Below are positions 7,046-20,126 of a stretch of 22,859 nucleotides of DNA, piece by piece; position 1 is the first letter of the stretch; the number at the start of each line of letters is the position of its first letter. Below the pieces are notes generated by a model. The model had not been told where the DNA came from. It was given only the letters and a program-made list of their open reading frames with translations, and did not search any database. Made by a program: the position numbers and the translations under genes. The stretch comes from Gemmatimonadota bacterium (lineage in GTDB: Bacteria > Latescibacterota > UBA2968 > UBA8231), in assembly GCA_002712305.1 (NCBI GenBank), contig PATE01000020.1:22217-45075 (forward strand), given 5' to 3'.

Positions 7046-7714
7046 CCCAAGTCTATTCTGATGCTGCGACACTCCGCTGGATATGAGCACAGCTACCTGC
7101 CAGATGCAGAGGTAGCCATCAAACAAATCGGCCTCGCGGAGGGTTGGAAGGTTACGACGACGCACCTATTGCAGAAAGTGACCGCCGAAAGTTTGGCAGA
7201 CACAGACCTGCTCATTTTCGCCACGACAGGCAATCTGGCCTTCGACGAAGGGCAGAAGCGAGCCATCATTTCCTATGTGGAAAAGGGCGGCGCGTTCTTG
7301 GGTATTCACAATGCCACCGATACCGGTTATGACTGGCCAGAATACGGTGAGATGATGGGTGGCTATTTCGACGGGCACCCGTGGCATCAGCAGGTGGGTA
7401 TCCTCGTTGAGGACACGGACCATCCGGCGACGCGCATGCTGGGTGACCGTTTCGAGGTGGTCGACGAGATCTACACGTTCAAGCAATGGGACCGGGGCAA
7501 AACCCATGTGCTGATGCGGATCGACAATGACACGGTGGACACCACAAAGGCCCAGCGGGAAGATGACGACTACGCCATGGGTTGGTGCCATGACTTCGGC
7601 GCGGGACGGGTCATCTACACCGCTCTGGGGCATCCCGACGATCTTTGGGCGCAGTCCTGGTTCCGACAGCACATCCGGGGGTGCATGGTGTGGGCTTTGA
7701 ACGAGGAGAGCTGA
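7043..7714 (+). CDS. ThuA-like glutamine-amidotransferase-fold protein
   Basis: A 223-aa protein of the ThuA family (trehalose-utilisation-like, class I amidotransferase fold). It opens with PKSILMLRHSAGYEHS, matching the family's 'hxhhhxGxxxHd' first strand. Then come LLIFATTGNLAFDEGQKRAIISYVEKGGAFLGIHNATDT (the 'f..yv..GgglvgiH' block), GGYFDGHPWHQQV, and a C-terminal DFGAGRVIYTALGH, all standard ThuA landmarks. Members are common beside Gfo/Idh/MocA genes in marine bacteria and are thought to bind or modify sugars, but no biochemical role is settled. The start is a TTG preceded by perfect AGGAGG. It diverges from the Gfo/Idh/MocA-sulfatase cassette and converges with the PAS-receiver gene, with a small hairpin between the two stops. 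Confidence 0.88.
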   Translation: MPKSILMLRHSAGYEHSYLPDAEVAIKQIGLAEGWKVTTTHLLQKVTAESLADTDLLIFATTGNLAFDEGQKRAIISYVEKGGAFLGIHNATDTGYDWPEYGEMMGGYFDGHPWHQQVGILVEDTDHPATRMLGDRFEVVDEIYTFKQWDRGKTHVLMRIDNDTVDTTKAQREDDDYAMGWCHDFGAGRVIYTALGHPDDLWAQSWFRQHIRGCMVWALNEES

Positions 7715-7718
7715 TCAA

Positions 7719-7733
7719 CAAATCCTCGATTTG
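7719..7733. terminator. Small hairpin between convergent genes
   Basis: CAAATC-CTC-GATTTG forms a perfect 6-bp stem with a 3-nt loop, between the stops of the ThuA-like gene (7714) and the PAS-receiver gene (7737). It has no T-tract, so a terminator role is only possible, not shown. Confidence 0.3.
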
Positions 7734-7736
7734 GCC

Positions 7737-8654
7737 TCAGTTCAGCGCCATCACCAACGCTTCGGCCATCTGATCGATGACGTACGGTTTGCGCACGACA
7801 CCGCGAAAACCGTGTTCCTCGAAACGCGCCATCACCGGATCGTTGGAGTATCCACTGGAGACCACGGCGCGCACCTCGAGGTCGAGTTCTCGCAGGGCAT
7901 TGAGGGTTTGGGCGCCCCCCATGCCGCCGGGCACGGTGAGGTCGAGTACAACCACGTCGAAAGGGTCTTCCGCCAGCGCCGACTGATAACCTTACGGCCT
8001 CGTCCCCAGACTGGGCGAAGGCGGATCGATAGCCGAGATGGGCGAGCATACGTTCCAGAAGTCGACAGATCTCTTCCTCGTCATCCATCACCAGCACACG
8101 GCCCTGGCCCCCTTCGGGTGCCGCTGTCGTCGGCGCCGGGCTCTGTTCAGAGCTCTCGGTGGAGACGGGTAGGTGCAGGGTAAACGTTGACTGCACCGCC
8201 ACCATGACCCGTCCCATGTCATCGGCATCGCGCATGCGCCAGATCTCGTCCCGCAGTCGTTGTGACAACTGCTGACGCCGTTCGCGGATCACTTCCTGGG
8301 TGACATCCTCACGAAGAATAATGGCCCCCACCAGTGTGCCATCCTGATCGTGGATCACCTGTCCCCGGATATCTCCCCAGACGAGGTGGCCGTCTTCCGG
8401 CCTGCCCTCCCATCGCAGCTGCTGGCTGCGCTGTTCTCCGAGGAGCTTGTCGATGAAATCGACGAATTGCTCACGTTCTTCGAAGACACCGGAGAATTCT
8501 GCCACATGGTGACCGATGCGGTCTTCCTTGCGCAGGTCACGCCCCATGCTTCTTGCCCACTCGAGGAAGATCTCGTTCACATCGACGATCAGACCCTCGG
8601 TATCAATGAGTGTTGCTGGCATGGGATGGCGGCGAAGACGGTGGCGTCGTCCAT
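7737..8654 (-). pseudogene. PAS-receiver signalling protein, broken by two frameshifts
   Basis: Three frames together encode one coherent protein of about 305 aa. Frame A (ATG 8654, after a GAGGGG ribosome site) gives MDDATVFAAIP. Frame B continues PATLIDTEGLIVDVNEIFLEWA, a PAS sensor domain running through GAIILREDVTQEV, and then starts a receiver domain: RVLVMDDEEEICRLLE. Frame C finishes the receiver with DPFDVVVLDLTVPGG (phosphoacceptor Asp), VVSSGYS and VRKPY (conserved Lys). The first shift fits loss of one C in the run at 8623-8625. The second, within 7977-7995, is a net +1. The receiver active site is complete if the frames are restored. The start is 1 nt after the epimerase stop. There is no histidine-kinase core, so it would be a sensor-receiver adaptor or the end of a phosphorelay. 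The cause may be decay or sequencing error. Confidence 0.8.
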
Positions 8655-10166: not shown

Positions 10167-10180
10167 TGGCATCTTCCCGT

Positions 10181-10524
10181 TTATGCGTTCTCGGCGGCCT
10201 GGCGCAGCTGACGGCTGCGTTGATGAAACTCATCCAATTCGAGCTCTCGCAGAAAAACCAGACCACGCGTTCCTCGAATCAGAGCGCTCGGATGATTGTA
10301 GAACCACTCGCGTCCCAGACACGTCTTCACACGCTGATACTGTTCCACCTGTACTTGCTGGCCAGTTCGGAGAATGGACCGTCGTGTTCCGAACTCGGGA
10401 ACGAAGCCTCGGCCTGGGAAATGAACGTGTTGATGAACGCGTTATGCATTATAGCGAACATATTGAGCGAGACCGGTACAAAAATGTTGGCCTCGGTCTG
10501 TTCGACAGGGGTCAAAAGGACCAT
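10181..10524 (-). pseudogene. Unrecognised small protein gene, apparently frameshifted once
   Basis: No ORF spans this region, but two frames read as one coherent ~114-aa protein. The first (ATG 10524) gives MVLLTPVEQTEANIFV, then SLNMFAIMHNAFINTFIS and FSELASKY, and ends at a TGA at 10327. The second, one base out, continues VEQYQRVKTCLGREWFYNHP, LVFLRELELDEFHQRSRQL and ends at TAA 10181-10183. Restoring one base near 10350 (TACAG to TACCAG) would join SELASKY-Q-VEQYQ cleanly. I recognise no family. The middle is hydrophobic and helical, the end strongly charged. It lies directly before ferritin on the same strand and just after the terminator of the upstream operon. No convincing ribosome site precedes the ATG. 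It may be a ferritin-linked small protein. Confidence 0.5.
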
Positions 10525-13368: not shown

Positions 13369-15315
13369 ATGACCGCCTTTTCCCCGCTGAGTGACAAGCA
13401 GATCGCCACCCTCGAGCAGCAGGGCTGCTCGGCCGCTGACTGGTCCACCGTTCATGTCGCCGAAGGCTTTGACCCTCTGCGCGTTCGTAACACCCGTTTC
13501 GACGGCAGCGTAACACTGGGATCCCTGTCTAGCACCATCGCCCTCGAAGGCGACGTGCAGATCGAAACCGGAATCCGCGACGCCCATCTGATCGATTGCG
13601 AGATCGGTGATGAGGTTCTGATCTCCCGCATCGGCGGTCATATTGCCCGTATGAAGATCGAAGCCGGTGCCCGCATCACAGACGTAGGAACCATCGCCAC
13701 GGGGCCGGGCGCCGTCTTCGGCAATGGCGTAGAGGCAGAGACGATCAACGAAGGGGGTGGGCGGGAGATCGGCCTGTTCGCTGAACTGTCGAGTCAGTTC
13801 GCCTATCTGATGGCCATGCACCGACATCGGGGTGACGTGGTGGAGAAACTGCAGGCCATGGTCTCTGACTACACCGACGCTACTCGGAGTGACCGTGGCG
13901 TCATCGGCGCCGGTGCGCGCGTGTCTCACGTGGGAGAGATGATCGACGTGCAGGTGGGCCCCGCGGCGCAGATCGTGGGCGCTCAACGACTTCACAACGG
14001 CACGATCCTCTCTGAGGCAGACGCCGTCACCGAGGTGGGCGCTGCCGTCGTGGCCGAGGACTTCATCATCGCCGAAGGCGCCCAGGTCGTGGATGGTGTG
14101 GTCCTCCACAGCTGCTTTGTGGGCCAGGGTTCGAAGATGGGCAAGCAATTCTCCGCCGAGAATTCGCTGTTCTTCGCCAACTGTGAGGGTTTTCACGGTG
14201 AGGCGTGTTCGATCTTTGCAGGACCGTATACGGTCACCCATCACAAGAGCACGTTGCTGATTGCCGGCATCTACTCCTTCTACAACGCGGGCTCTGGGAC
14301 CAACCAGAGCAACCACATGTACAAACTCGGCCCGGTTCATCAGGGCGTGATTCAGCGAGGCACGAAAAGCGGGTCTTTCTCGTATATGCGCTGGCCCACC
14401 GTGGTGGGGCCCTTCTGCGTCATCATCGGCAAACATCTCAACAACTTCGATATCGGAGACCTGCCATTCTCCTACGTCACCGAAGAGGAAGGGGACTCCC
14501 TCCTCACGCCGGCCATGAACATGTTCACCGTAGGCACCGTACGGGACGGAGAAAAGTGGCCCACCCGGGACCGCCGAACGGCGACGAACAAGAGAGATCA
14601 GATCTGTTTCGAGGTCTACAGCCCTTACACGGTGGGCAAGATGGTGCGTGCCGAAGAGGCGCTCACGAGCCTCTATGAAGAGACCGATCGTGACGTTGAG
14701 CAGGTCCGCTACAAAGGCGTGCTCGTCAAACGGCTGATGTTGCGCAAGGGAGCTCGTAACTATCGCGACGGAATCGATGTGTATCTGCAGGGCAAGATCC
14801 TCGAACGACTCGCCGAAGCACGAGCTGATGGCGATCAGGAGGTGCGTGAGGCCCTGGCCGTTGGGGACGGCATCGGTGACGGCGATTGGAGCGATGTGGG
14901 CGGACAGTTGGTTCCCCTCGCCCGTCTGGCTCAGATCGAGGAAGGAATCGCCTCGGGTGCACTCGCCACACCGTCTCAGGTAGATGCGGCCTTTGCCGGT
15001 GCCGCCGAAGCGTATGCCGCAGATGAATGGGCGTGGATCTGCCGGGTTTGGGCGCAGCGAACCGGCGCTCTTCCCGAAACGTTGGGCACCGACGATCTCG
15101 ACAAGATCGACGCAAGTCACCGAAAGATGTCCAACTCCACGATCAAGAAGATCCTCGCCGACGCAGAGAAGGAGTTCGATTCCATCGCCCAGTATGGTTA
15201 TGGAGCCGAGGAGGGCGACGAGGCCCGTGACACAGACTTCAGCTCCGTACGTGGCACCTTCGTGGACAATTCGTTCGTGCAGCAGATGCAAGGTAGACTG
15301 CGTGATGACGGATGA
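13369..15315 (+). CDS. DUF4954 hexapeptide-repeat (beta-helix) protein
   Basis: 648 aa. Residues about 40-290 read as a left-handed parallel beta-helix with short imperfect hexapeptide turns (VTLGSL, IGDEVLISRI, VGQGSKM). They are followed by the strongly conserved SIFAGPYTVTHHKSTLLIAG, GTNQSNHMYKLGPVHQG and RGTKSGSFSYMRWPTVVGPF blocks. A helical C-terminal half follows. This matches DUF4954 proteins of Bacteroidetes and Spirochaetes, sometimes called acyltransferase-like or nucleotidyl-sugar binding, with no proven function. The ATG is preceded by a good promoter. It is long and unbroken. An antisense frame of 662 codons overlaps it, but that frame has no family features. It overlaps the following broken receiver gene by 11 nt. 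It has no signal peptide or membrane segment, so it is probably cytoplasmic. Confidence 0.88.
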   Translation: MTAFSPLSDKQIATLEQQGCSAADWSTVHVAEGFDPLRVRNTRFDGSVTLGSLSSTIALEGDVQIETGIRDAHLIDCEIGDEVLISRIGGHIARMKIEAGARITDVGTIATGPGAVFGNGVEAETINEGGGREIGLFAELSSQFAYLMAMHRHRGDVVEKLQAMVSDYTDATRSDRGVIGAGARVSHVGEMIDVQVGPAAQIVGAQRLHNGTILSEADAVTEVGAAVVAEDFIIAEGAQVVDGVVLHSCFVGQGSKMGKQFSAENSLFFANCEGFHGEACSIFAGPYTVTHHKSTLLIAGIYSFYNAGSGTNQSNHMYKLGPVHQGVIQRGTKSGSFSYMRWPTVVGPFCVIIGKHLNNFDIGDLPFSYVTEEEGDSLLTPAMNMFTVGTVRDGEKWPTRDRRTATNKRDQICFEVYSPYTVGKMVRAEEALTSLYEETDRDVEQVRYKGVLVKRLMLRKGARNYRDGIDVYLQGKILERLAEARADGDQEVREALAVGDGIGDGDWSDVGGQLVPLARLAQIEEGIASGALATPSQVDAAFAGAAEAYAADEWAWICRVWAQRTGALPETLGTDDLDKIDASHRKMSNSTIKKILADAEKEFDSIAQYGYGAEEGDEARDTDFSSVRGTFVDNSFVQQMQGRLRDDG

Positions 15316-15600
15316 GAACGGACGTCAGCCCGAAGATGTGACCGACGTCCTCGTCGTCGAGGATAGCCGAGTTCAGTCTGAGGCACTGCGTCTGAGTCTC
15401 GAACACCGTGGATTCGCCGTGGATATCGAGTACGTGGCGCCGTAGATGGCGTGGAGGGCCTGGCTGCGGTGCGTGAACAGGCCCCGTCCCTCATCATCAG
15501 CGATGTGGACATTCCAAACATGGATGGGTACGCGCTGTGTGAAGCGATCAAAGACGACCCCCAGTTGCGATCGATTCCCGTCATCTTGCTGACGTCCCTG
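15305..15600 (+). pseudogene. Truncated, frameshifted response-regulator receiver domain
   Basis: ATG 15305 begins MTDENGRQPEDVTDVLVVED, with the acidic pair of a receiver domain (VLVVEDSRVQ). Translation stops at TAG 15443. A second frame carries on in coherent receiver sequence: GVEGLAAVREQAPSLIISDV (phosphoacceptor Asp), DIPNMDGYALCEAI and VILLTS. A net one-base loss near 15434-15442 explains the break. The domain is cut off at 'VILLTSL', before the conserved Lys strand, where the sequence switches directly to a histidine-kinase C-terminus. It overlaps the end of the DUF4954 gene by 11 nt, as expected if it was once translationally coupled to it. It cannot make a working receiver as written. 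Confidence 0.75.
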
Positions 15601-15601
15601 C

Positions 15602-15742
15602 GGCACGGGTCTCGGGCTGGCCATTTCCCGTCAGTTGTCACAGATGATGGGTGGACGAATGTGGCTGGAGAGTGAGGGAATGGGGCACGGAAGCACCTTC
15701 TATTTCACGATCCAATTTGCTCTGCAGCAGGGCCCGAAAGAA
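15602..15742 (+). pseudogene. C-terminal fragment of a histidine kinase (HATPase G2 region)
   Basis: The frame [12 protein letters not shown], then [20 protein letters not shown], ends about QFALQQGP and is the classic end of a histidine-kinase ATP-binding domain (G2 box and last strands). It is out of frame with the receiver fragment before it and lacks the H, N and G1 boxes. The original gene was probably a receiver-(PAS)-kinase hybrid that lost about 250 or more codons at 15600/15602. The downstream tail in this frame has no kinase features and runs antisense into the next gene piece. Confidence 0.75.
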
Positions 15743-16010
15743 TGGCTGTCGAGAATCCGAGCCCCGTCGAGGAAGGTTCCAGATCGAATTCATGACAGCG
15801 GGCGACGATGCGATTCAGTTCAGCGGCGTCGGGCAGTGCCGCCCGGGGCGACCGATCACCGGTGGCTGCGGCGGGCACAAGTAGCTTGGGCGATTTCGCC
15901 ACGAATTCGGTTCGCAGTCGCCGGGGCACCGTGAGCGCCTCGACACCCATACGCCGATAGGCCTCCAGTCGTTGCCGCGAGAGGTCAGGTGCCGGCAGAC
16001 TGAGTCTCAC
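15735..16010 (-). pseudogene. Truncated N-terminus of a sugar isomerase/dehydratase-like TIM barrel
   Basis: A minus-strand frame from GTG 16010 reads MRLSLPAPDLSRQRLEAYRR and [20 protein letters not shown]. This layout (conserved first strand with aromatic or charged helix, then 'el.ri..rc.e.gl.p') is typical of UxuA-like or xylose-isomerase-like barrels. Family placement is tentative. The start overlaps the stop of the P-loop kinase gene as GTGA, so the start is almost certainly genuine. The protein breaks off after about 90 residues where the histidine-kinase fragment begins (near 15732-15742). It would lack its metal and catalytic residues. Only the first quarter of the gene is left. Confidence 0.5.
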
Positions 16011-16579
16011 GCGAAGCGTTCCACCTCATTCAACGCGGCCGTGAGTGCCGCCTTTCCCAGGGAAGTCTCGAGGCGAACTCGCTGGATGAATCGCCGGATC
16101 TGTCGGGGAGAGGAAAGAACGTGGACACCCGTCGTCGATGGCAGCTGATCCAGCAGCTGTTTGATGTGAGGACGCTGGCGTCGACGATAGGTGGCGATCC
16201 AGGTGAGAAAGTCCCAACCTGGCAGACGCTCGGGGCAGCCGGGTGCCATATCGGAACGCGTTCTACCTCGCCAGCGCAGACCTCGCATGATGACACGCCA
16301 GAGACACCGGACCGGGTGCAGATCGAGAAACAGAACCGTATCGGCCGCCGCAAGCCTTACGTCCATTGTGCTGCCATAGTTACCGTCGATGAGCCAGCGC
16401 TCAGCGGCGATCATCTGTGCCTCGAGTCGAACACGGGCTTCGCGTTCCGTCATCACCCACCCAGGCTGCCAGTATTCTCGATCGAGGTGGATGGTCGGCA
16501 GTTGGAGGATGACCCCCAACTGCCGCGCCAGCGTCGACTTTCCGGCCCCGCCTGAACCTATGATCGCAACCCGATTCAC
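16007..16579 (-). CDS. Small P-loop kinase (FlaR/adenylate-kinase-like)
   Basis: 190 aa from GTG 16579. The P-loop G8-S-G-G-A-G-K14-S15-T lies right at the N-terminus. It is followed by LGVILQLPTIHLDREYWQPG, the usual 'DxxxWxPG' substrate segment of the topology-modulation (FlaR)/adenylate-kinase-like family, and by WLIDGNYGSTMDVRLAAADT. The GTG start overlaps the stop of the upstream fragment (GTGA), and its own stop overlaps the next start in the same way, so this is a middle gene of a translationally coupled operon. In-frame upstream sequence to 16906 looks non-coding for this protein and is excluded. It phosphorylates an unknown small molecule, perhaps a nucleoside or sugar. This is the only intact gene between 15305 and 17018. 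Confidence 0.75.
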   Translation of the reverse strand: MNRVAIIGSGGAGKSTLARQLGVILQLPTIHLDREYWQPGWVMTEREARVRLEAQMIAAERWLIDGNYGSTMDVRLAAADTVLFLDLHPVRCLWRVIMRGLRWRGRTRSDMAPGCPERLPGWDFLTWIATYRRRQRPHIKQLLDQLPSTTGVHVLSSPRQIRRFIQRVRLETSLGKAALTAALNEVERFA

Positions 16580-16704
16580 GTAGCCGGCGGTTCGATATAG
16601 GGCTTGGGCAACTGATAGCCGCGTTTTTTCACCTGAATACGGGCTAACACCGCACCCCCTTCGGTGGTGGCATCGCCGTAGGCGAGATACAACGTGCGAG
16701 CTCG
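16576..16704 (-). pseudogene. Orphan C-terminal ~42 codons of an unknown protein
   Basis: A minus-strand frame bounded by stops reads RARTLYLAYGDATTEGGAVL and then ARIQVKKRGYQLPKPYIEPP. It ends at TGA 16576-16578, overlapping the P-loop gene's GTG as GTGA. Its composition and coupling indicate real former coding sequence. Its 5' side is cut at about 16704, where the Reg_prop fragment begins in another frame. No start codon fits. The family is not recognised, though the 'TLYLAYGDA' strand would suit a beta-rich sugar-acting enzyme's last strands. Confidence 0.45.
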
Positions 16705-17018
16705 TCAACACCGTAGTTGTGAAATCGATCGCCGTCCCACATAGACACACCATCGGTGGCGGCAAACCAGATGTGGCCGTCAGCGTCTTGTGTGATTCCC
16801 CAAACCGTGTCACCGGACAAGCCGTCCGCCACGCCATAGGAGGACAGTGTGTCCCCGTCATGACGGACGGCGCCACATCCCCACAAACCCATGCACAGAA
16901 AACCACGCAGGTCTTGAAAGAGACTGATCACCGGACCGGGAAGCCCGTTTGTGCCGTCGAGATTCCGCCACGTGCCGCGACAGCGGATGCGGCGCTGGTC
17001 ACACAGCGTCTTGTTCAT
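16705..17018 (-). pseudogene. Truncated Reg_prop beta-propeller sensor N-terminus
   Basis: From ATG 17018 the frame includes WRNLDGTNGLPGPVISLFQD, then two Reg_prop blades: LRGFLCMGLWGCGAVRHDGD and then TVWGITQDADGHIWFAATDG followed by VSMWDGDRFHNYG. These ~40-residue repeats form the periplasmic propeller of hybrid two-component sensors. Only about one hundred residues are left of a sensor that normally has 600-700 residues of propeller, followed by a kinase. Cys replaces the expected Trp and Gly in 'FLCMGLWGCG', consistent with decay. Non-homologous residues begin about 16704-16710, exactly where the unrelated C-terminal fragment starts. No signal peptide is visible, so even the N-terminus may be damaged. 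It lies 15 nt after the TIM-barrel stop. Confidence 0.65.
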
Positions 17019-17033: not shown

Positions 17034-17855
17034 CTAGCCAGCCAGCCGGTCCAGCAGCTTACGCAGTTCCGTCACCGCGATGGCAAATCGTTCGGCACCG
17101 GTGCCCCCATACTCCGGATCGTCCGCCTTCAGGTGGGGCTCTACCGAGACGAATCCAGAAATCCCACGCTCATCCGCCCACTTGAGGATCTGTTCCACAT
17201 CACCATCGCCATGCCCTGCGGGCACTACGCGCCCCGTGTCAGCCACGGCATCTTTGATGTGGAAGTAGGCGACGTGATCGGCGAGCAGGTCGAAAGCGGG
17301 GCCGGGACGAAACCCGCACTGCACGAAATTGGCCGGGTCAAAGGCCGCCTTGAAGTGATCTGACTTGGCGTGCGTCAGCAGATCGAGACAACGCTCGGGG
17401 CTGTCTCCGTAGATGCCCTTTTCGTTTTCGTGAAGCAGCACGATGCCCGCCGTCTCGGCGGCGCGTGCCATGCGCGAGATTTGCTCCAGAACGACGTCGC
17501 GGACGTCCTCGGGATTCTGATCCTTGTGGTAGAAGGAGAAGATCCGGACGAAGTCACAACCCAACTGGGAGGCCCGCTGCAGGGCAATACCGAATCGGCG
17601 GAAGTGATCCTCGAGATCGTCGCCGACATCGACCTTGCCAATGGGCGAGCCAATGGACGACACACGGATGTCGGTGTCGTCGAGTCTGCTTCGCAGCTTC
17701 TCGGCCTGGCTGTCGGTTAGATCCAGGACATTCACACCGTCCACTCCACGAACCTCTACCCAGGAGACCCCCGTGGCCTGCAGGCCGGCGATCTGCTCGT
17801 CCATGGCCGGCGCGATCTCGTCGGCGAAACCGGTAATTTCAAAGCCGGGTGCCAT
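17034..17855 (-). CDS. Sugar phosphate isomerase/epimerase (AP-endonuclease-2 TIM barrel)
   Basis: A 273-aa TIM barrel. The metal-binding set expected for xylose-isomerase-like proteins is present: E143 in LLHENEKG, D173 in AAFDPANF, H199 in YFHIKD, and E239 in FVSVEPHL. MAPGFEITGFADEIAP starts at the first strand. Members isomerise or epimerise keto-sugars such as tagatose, erythrulose or inosose. Its ATG overlaps the stop of the 401-aa gene by one base (TGATG), so it is translated together with that gene. It is last in the UxuA-like operon and probably acts on a derivative of the same sugar acid. Exact substrate is unknown. Confidence 0.9.
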   Translation of the reverse strand: MAPGFEITGFADEIAPAMDEQIAGLQATGVSWVEVRGVDGVNVLDLTDSQAEKLRSRLDDTDIRVSSIGSPIGKVDVGDDLEDHFRRFGIALQRASQLGCDFVRIFSFYHKDQNPEDVRDVVLEQISRMARAAETAGIVLLHENEKGIYGDSPERCLDLLTHAKSDHFKAAFDPANFVQCGFRPGPAFDLLADHVAYFHIKDAVADTGRVVPAGHGDGDVEQILKWADERGISGFVSVEPHLKADDPEYGGTGAERFAIAVTELRKLLDRLAG

Positions 17856-20102: not shown

Positions 20103-20126
20103 GATACAAGGCATCCAGAACAGCCT

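Follow-up and report, generated by a model that had tools for sequence, protein, structure and literature searches.

The window analysed here, a whole stretch of 22,859 nucleotides (G000:C41:22217-45075), comes from G000, a 4.77-Mb draft genome in 146 contigs that is 90.9% complete. At 15305-17018 it carries a row of cut gene pieces flanking a single intact P-loop kinase gene. The pieces were identified from reading frames, Pfam domains and alignment to intact homologues in relatives. Among these relatives, G001 (7.1 Mb) belongs to the same genus (g1), and the window is syntenic along its full length with one of its contigs, C46; G005, G009, G012 and G015 belong to a second genus, g5.

Composition of the mosaic

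The mosaic is bordered on the left by an intact DUF4954/DUF6819 gene and on the right by an intact sugar-isomerase TIM-barrel gene (Table 1). The DUF4954 gene matches its G001 homologue at 80% amino-acid identity and adjoins nagB in nearly all relatives examined, and its stop codon falls within the first bases of the receiver stub. Among named organisms the gene is closest to that of Candidatus Handelsmanbacteria and to that of a marine 'Gemmatimonadetes' metagenome-assembled genome, so that the window probably stems from a Latescibacterota-type lineage. The P-loop kinase, 67% identical to its G001 counterpart, shows the codon-position bias of a selected gene; PRK08118, the nearest curated model, scores 203 bits, just under its cut-off of 215.

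The original prediction, a reading of the letters of this window, had proposed a run of truncated pieces around an intact P-loop gene, with homology switches at about 15600, 15737 and 16704. Frames, Pfam domains and intact homologues bear out the run of pieces, and the switches were located at 15600, 15733 and 16701, so that the proposed positions were accurate to a few bases. The receiver domain it named is present, but the break of its frame by an 11-nt net insertion near 15400-15440, in the N-terminal part, had gone unnoted. What it called an 'unknown C-terminus' is a genuine C-terminal piece, now identified as the end of an SMP-30/gluconolactonase gene.

Table 1. Genes, stubs, junctions and further losses in the window, with corresponding positions in G001
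Feature	Position	Strand	Basis or remark	Aligned segment and match in G001:C46
DUF4954/DUF6819 gene, intact	13369..15315	+	Pfam; conserved left border of lost block	
Receiver-domain stub, residues ~1-98 of 210-residue response regulator	15305..15600	+	Pfam; intact homologue L135:1123-1755	15305-15599, match ending at 141406
Junction 1	15600..15601		3.6 kb lost; two bases between homologous flanks	
HATPase_c stub (44 codons) of 982-residue hybrid histidine kinase, GTGLGLAI...FTIQF end	15601..15733	+	Pfam; G001 homologue	15602-15732, 145032-145162
Junction 2	15733..15735		about 2 kb lost, estimated size	
Sugar-isomerase-like barrel, N-terminal stub of ~93 residues	16010 to ~15735	-	homologues in relatives	
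P-loop kinase, intact	16007..16579	-	best model PRK08118 'DNA topology modulation protein'	16088-16578, 146515-147005
SMP-30/gluconolactonase (SGL) C-terminal stub, ~34 codons	16576..16701	-	Pfam; G001 homologue	16612-16685, 147104-147177
Junction 3	16701..16702		3.67 kb lost, comprising 92% of the SMP-30 gene and 89% of the Reg_prop kinase	
Reg_prop histidine kinase stub, first 106 codons of 1002-residue protein	16702..17018	-	Pfam; G001 homologue	16702-17013, 150848-151159
Sugar-isomerase TIM-barrel gene, intact	17034..17855	-	Pfam; conserved right border of block	
Second decayed sensor kinase, PAS stub joined to receiver	7618..8622	-	Pfam; G001 homologue	
C-terminal stub of 780-residue gene intact in G001	10180..10494	-	2.05 kb deletion at 10494/10546	
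Two G001 genes lost cleanly (3.1 kb)	20105..20107		G001 comparison	

Collinearity and deletion junctions

Every piece except the sugar barrel has a counterpart in G001:C46, at 70-81% DNA identity, with order and strand preserved. There the order is DUF4954, receiver protein (210 amino acids), receiver-glutamate dehydrogenase (550), hybrid kinase with two receivers and an Hpt domain (982), P-loop kinase (190), SMP-30 lactonase (354) and Reg_prop kinase (1002). Judged from the alignments, such a collinear, same-strand match is far beyond chance. Comparison with a related genome for intact versions, as had been proposed at the outset, thus succeeded: G001 holds the intact parent genes, the sugar barrel excepted. 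Both the sugar barrel and the TIM barrel are missing from G001.

Three junctions account for the missing sequence: (i) at junction 1, the remaining receiver, the entire receiver-glutamate dehydrogenase gene and the N-terminal 53% of the hybrid kinase were lost; (ii) at junction 2, the C-terminal receivers and Hpt domain of the kinase (its last 1.3 kb) and the C-terminal two thirds of the sugar barrel were lost, the barrel probably contributing roughly 0.7 kb; (iii) at junction 3, most of the SMP-30 and Reg_prop kinase genes were lost. No more than a few bases (0-2) separate the homologous flanks at junctions 1 and 3.

The break regions of G001 share words of at most 7-9 bp, which is about chance level. 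Microhomology-mediated deletion was considered on this basis and set aside, as words of this length are expected by chance and G001 stands in for the true ancestral breaks. At ~25% divergence, the G001 break regions may differ from the true ancestral break sequence, and no deletion mechanism is therefore claimed. Mobile-element genes were not recognised among the products examined, although no dedicated search was made for them. Beyond short or paralogous matches, the deleted sequence was not found elsewhere in the G000 draft, given its completeness of 90.9%; the best glutamate dehydrogenase there is a full-length 48% paralogue without a receiver.

Direction, age and interpretation of the decay

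Evidence on the direction of change came from genus g5. At this locus G005 harbours DUF4954, the receiver-glutamate dehydrogenase (74%), the hybrid kinase (60%), a truncated sugar barrel, a full-length Reg_prop kinase of 1009 amino acids (55%) and the TIM barrel, and the G009 locus agrees with this arrangement. Because G005 and G009 keep intact versions, the large intact genes are ancestral and the window stubs derived. The TIM barrel is present at the locus in G005, G009, G012, G002 and G003; from this distribution it is ancestral and was lost by G001. The sugar barrel, which lies between the two kinase genes, was found at the locus in relatives only in decayed versions: it is truncated in G005 (L024:6125-6270) and has a frame-breaking internal gap in G009 (L180:1349-2135), and G001 has lost it altogether. 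As its stubs in these two genomes differ in length, it is taken as ancestral and separately decayed in several genomes. The outgroup test of direction covers the mosaic; whole-gene gaps elsewhere may represent gain in G001.

A second collapse of the locus is seen in G012:C207 (L179:9529-10061). There a receiver stub, interrupted by a frameshift and a stop codon, comes after DUF4954 and runs straight into a Reg_prop remnant of ~95 residues, beyond which lies the TIM barrel. By comparison of the two loci, G012, which is from another genus and another assembly, represents an independent collapse of the same locus. In G002 and G003, DUF4954 adjoins the TIM barrel with nothing recognisable between them.

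The age of the decay can be gauged from substitutions relative to G001. At codon positions 1/2/3, these are 0.10/0.11/0.55 in the Reg_prop stub, 0.15/0.13/0.46 in the receiver stub and 0.11/0.11/0.36 in the kinase stub, as compared with 0.13/0.12/0.52 in the DUF4954 gene. Relaxed selection, which is expected of old pseudogenes and not required of recent ones, is not visible in the stub substitutions, where third-position bias is kept. Since this position profile is that of living genes, selection acted on the stubs through most of the period after the split. Frame-breaking indels are found in both receiver stubs of the window (15305-15600 and within 7618-8622), and the flanking DUF4954, oxidoreductase, isomerase and thioesterase genes have kept their reading frames open. 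The loss is thus recent relative to the split from G001, because the receiver stub is frame-broken yet the stub substitutions are still of coding type.

Taken together, these sequence comparisons are best accounted for if the mosaic is the remnant of a conserved sensor-kinase cluster after at least three deletions, that is, ordinary and fairly recent decay by reductive pseudogenisation (probability about 0.92). The ancestor carried DUF4954, the receiver, the receiver-glutamate dehydrogenase and the hybrid kinase on the plus strand and, facing the kinase on the minus strand, the sugar barrel, the P-loop kinase, the SMP-30 lactonase, the Reg_prop kinase and the TIM barrel. In this lineage, three separate deletions ending inside genes took out about 9 kb and fused the leftover ends, leaving the P-loop gene alone whole between them, with nothing inserted or shuffled. 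Selection on environmental sensing may have been relaxed in this lineage, so that random kilobase deletions sparing the flanking metabolic genes became fixed; the stubs would then be scars without function.

Several points weigh against this account. The Reg_prop and kinase stubs are short, uninterrupted reading frames that look selected; taken by itself, this would be compatible with an artefact as well. Since G005 lacks the 210-residue receiver, P-loop and SMP-30 genes, their ancestral state rests on G001, although that of the receiver is further backed by the receiver stub in G012. Junction 2, with the sugar barrel missing in G001, was reconstructed from G005, G009 and more distant homologues. 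Furthermore, the analysis covers assembled sequences, and family counts are approximate because the G000 draft is fragmented.

The mosaic would be neither a new genetic structure nor an assembly error, the latter being very unlikely. Were it a misjoining of pieces from one or several genomes, with the intact cluster still in the cell, short stubs with coding-type substitutions would be expected, as is observed. The pieces, however, derive from a single locus in the correct order and strand. De Bruijn misjoins require longer shared words than the 7-9 bp found between the break regions, and the missing parts are absent from the G000 assembly. Moreover, the receiver stub bears its frame-breaking insertion, and many similar losses occur across three contigs. 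The parallel in G012, being a separate assembly with a separate collapse, argues strongly for biology. The assembly chimera that the original prediction had entertained was abandoned on these grounds.

Slightly less probable still, and also improbable in absolute terms, is retention of the stubs as short functional proteins or as antisense or regulatory RNA. The Reg_prop (106 codons) and kinase (44 codons) stubs are uninterrupted with third-position bias kept, and G012 retains stubs of the same two gene ends, as such a role would predict. Against it, the receiver is frame-broken, the SMP-30 stub has 34 codons, and neither the phosphoacceptor nor most of the ATP site survives in the kinase stub; the break positions differ between G000 and G012, the G012 receiver has a frameshift and a stop, and G002 and G003 are without any stubs.

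An operon piece inserted between two-component remnants, also raised at the start, might explain why an intact P-loop gene sits between cut genes but can practically be dismissed, as that gene is equally placed and oriented between the hybrid kinase and SMP-30 in G001, the sugar barrel lies between the kinase and the Reg_prop gene in G005, order and strand are ancestral, as G001 shows (and, for the DUF4954, kinase, sugar barrel, Reg_prop and TIM genes, G005), and the products examined held no recognised mobile-element genes, though no search was aimed at them.

Loss of two-component genes beyond the locus

Decay by deletion extends beyond the mosaic. The parent of the second decayed sensor kinase is, in G001, a 1071-residue PAS-GAF-kinase-receiver protein, of which 2.4 kb was deleted internally at 8110-8190, and its receiver is frame-shifted. 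The two genes lost at 20105..20107 encode a 372-residue protein without Pfam match and a receiver-HDOD protein. Alignment of three G000 contigs (C46, C41 and C44) to 131 kb of syntenic G001:C46 sequence revealed 12 or more gaps in G000, each 0.8-3.8 kb long and together 29 kb, most of which cut genes. Among the lost or cut genes are kinases, receivers, the receiver-HDOD protein, a sulfatase, a FIST-domain sensor, a heparinase-like protein and unknowns. Conversely, the TIM barrel is the only G000-specific stretch longer than 0.8 kb within that synteny. Of the 'decayed rearrangement hotspot' in the original prediction, the decay therefore stands but the local hotspot does not, even though six of these gaps fall inside the window. 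Past G001:C46 194459, synteny fragments into short blocks with 12-18 kb gaps (L171, G000:C44, 3790-14331).

A genome-wide view was built from these three contigs plus family domain counts. G000 has 41 receiver domains (PF00072) where G001 has at least 120, and 5 Reg_prop repeats where G001 has at least 74; both proportions lie far below the G000/G001 size ratio of 0.67. In genus g5, receiver matches number 96 in G005 and 71 in G009 versus 25 in G012 and 24 in G015. Receiver counts across 25 family members span 9 to at least 120, and a single genus can hold both rich and poor species. Reductive pseudogenisation thus appears to affect two-component genes in this Latescibacterota/Handelsmanbacteria-like lineage. 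A literature search on pseudogenes or genome reduction in Latescibacterota returned nothing apart from an unrelated review.

Comparable losses are known elsewhere. Burkholderia mallei (PMC2877748) and Xenorhabdus poinarii (PMC4079199) illustrate host-adapted reductive evolution with pseudogenes and kilobase deletions, and share with G000 the loss by deletion relative to a larger-genome relative and the recent pseudogenes beside intact flanking genes; unlike in those cases, no insertion sequences were recognised at the window junctions, and G000 is still 4.77 Mb. In the symbiont Wolbachia (PMC4426382), two-component genes are likewise strongly reduced relative to relatives, but in G000 the process is still under way, the stubs being in place and 41 receiver matches remaining.

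The gene deleted entirely at junction 1 is known here from relatives and not from the window. The receiver-glutamate dehydrogenase fusion is full length in nine genomes of two families (L135:1767-3419 in G001; L142, L141, L143-L147 and L185) and, where flanks were examined, lies mostly beside a hybrid kinase with Hpt, an arrangement not seen in G003. In three aligned sequences (G001, G009 and G005), its receiver keeps the acidic pocket, the phospho-Asp, the Ser/Thr and the Lys. These features suggest direct two-component control of a nitrogen-metabolism enzyme. The same architecture is listed in P2CS, where a receiver fusion of EC 1.4.1.3 is given as a 'probable' enzyme (PMC2716373).

What had been a suspected assembly problem becomes a well-resolved case of early gene-cluster decay in which every deletion can be located by comparing two sister genomes. 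The decay points to a lost system, in which a glutamate dehydrogenase apparently under receiver control was paired with a hybrid kinase. It is conceivable, if doubtful, that in several genera of this family the kinase/receiver-glutamate dehydrogenase cluster was taken apart more than once, each time separately, through selection against the phosphorelay as such; stubs of its two outer genes survive in G000 and G012, and G002 and G003 lack the block without any stubs. In that case the locus would mark a repeated lifestyle switch abolishing two-component control of glutamate dehydrogenase. More broadly, the collapse in G012 and the low receiver counts in some members of both genera suggest that shedding of two-component systems has been repeated in the family, and the family's metagenome-assembled genomes offer a way to check this.

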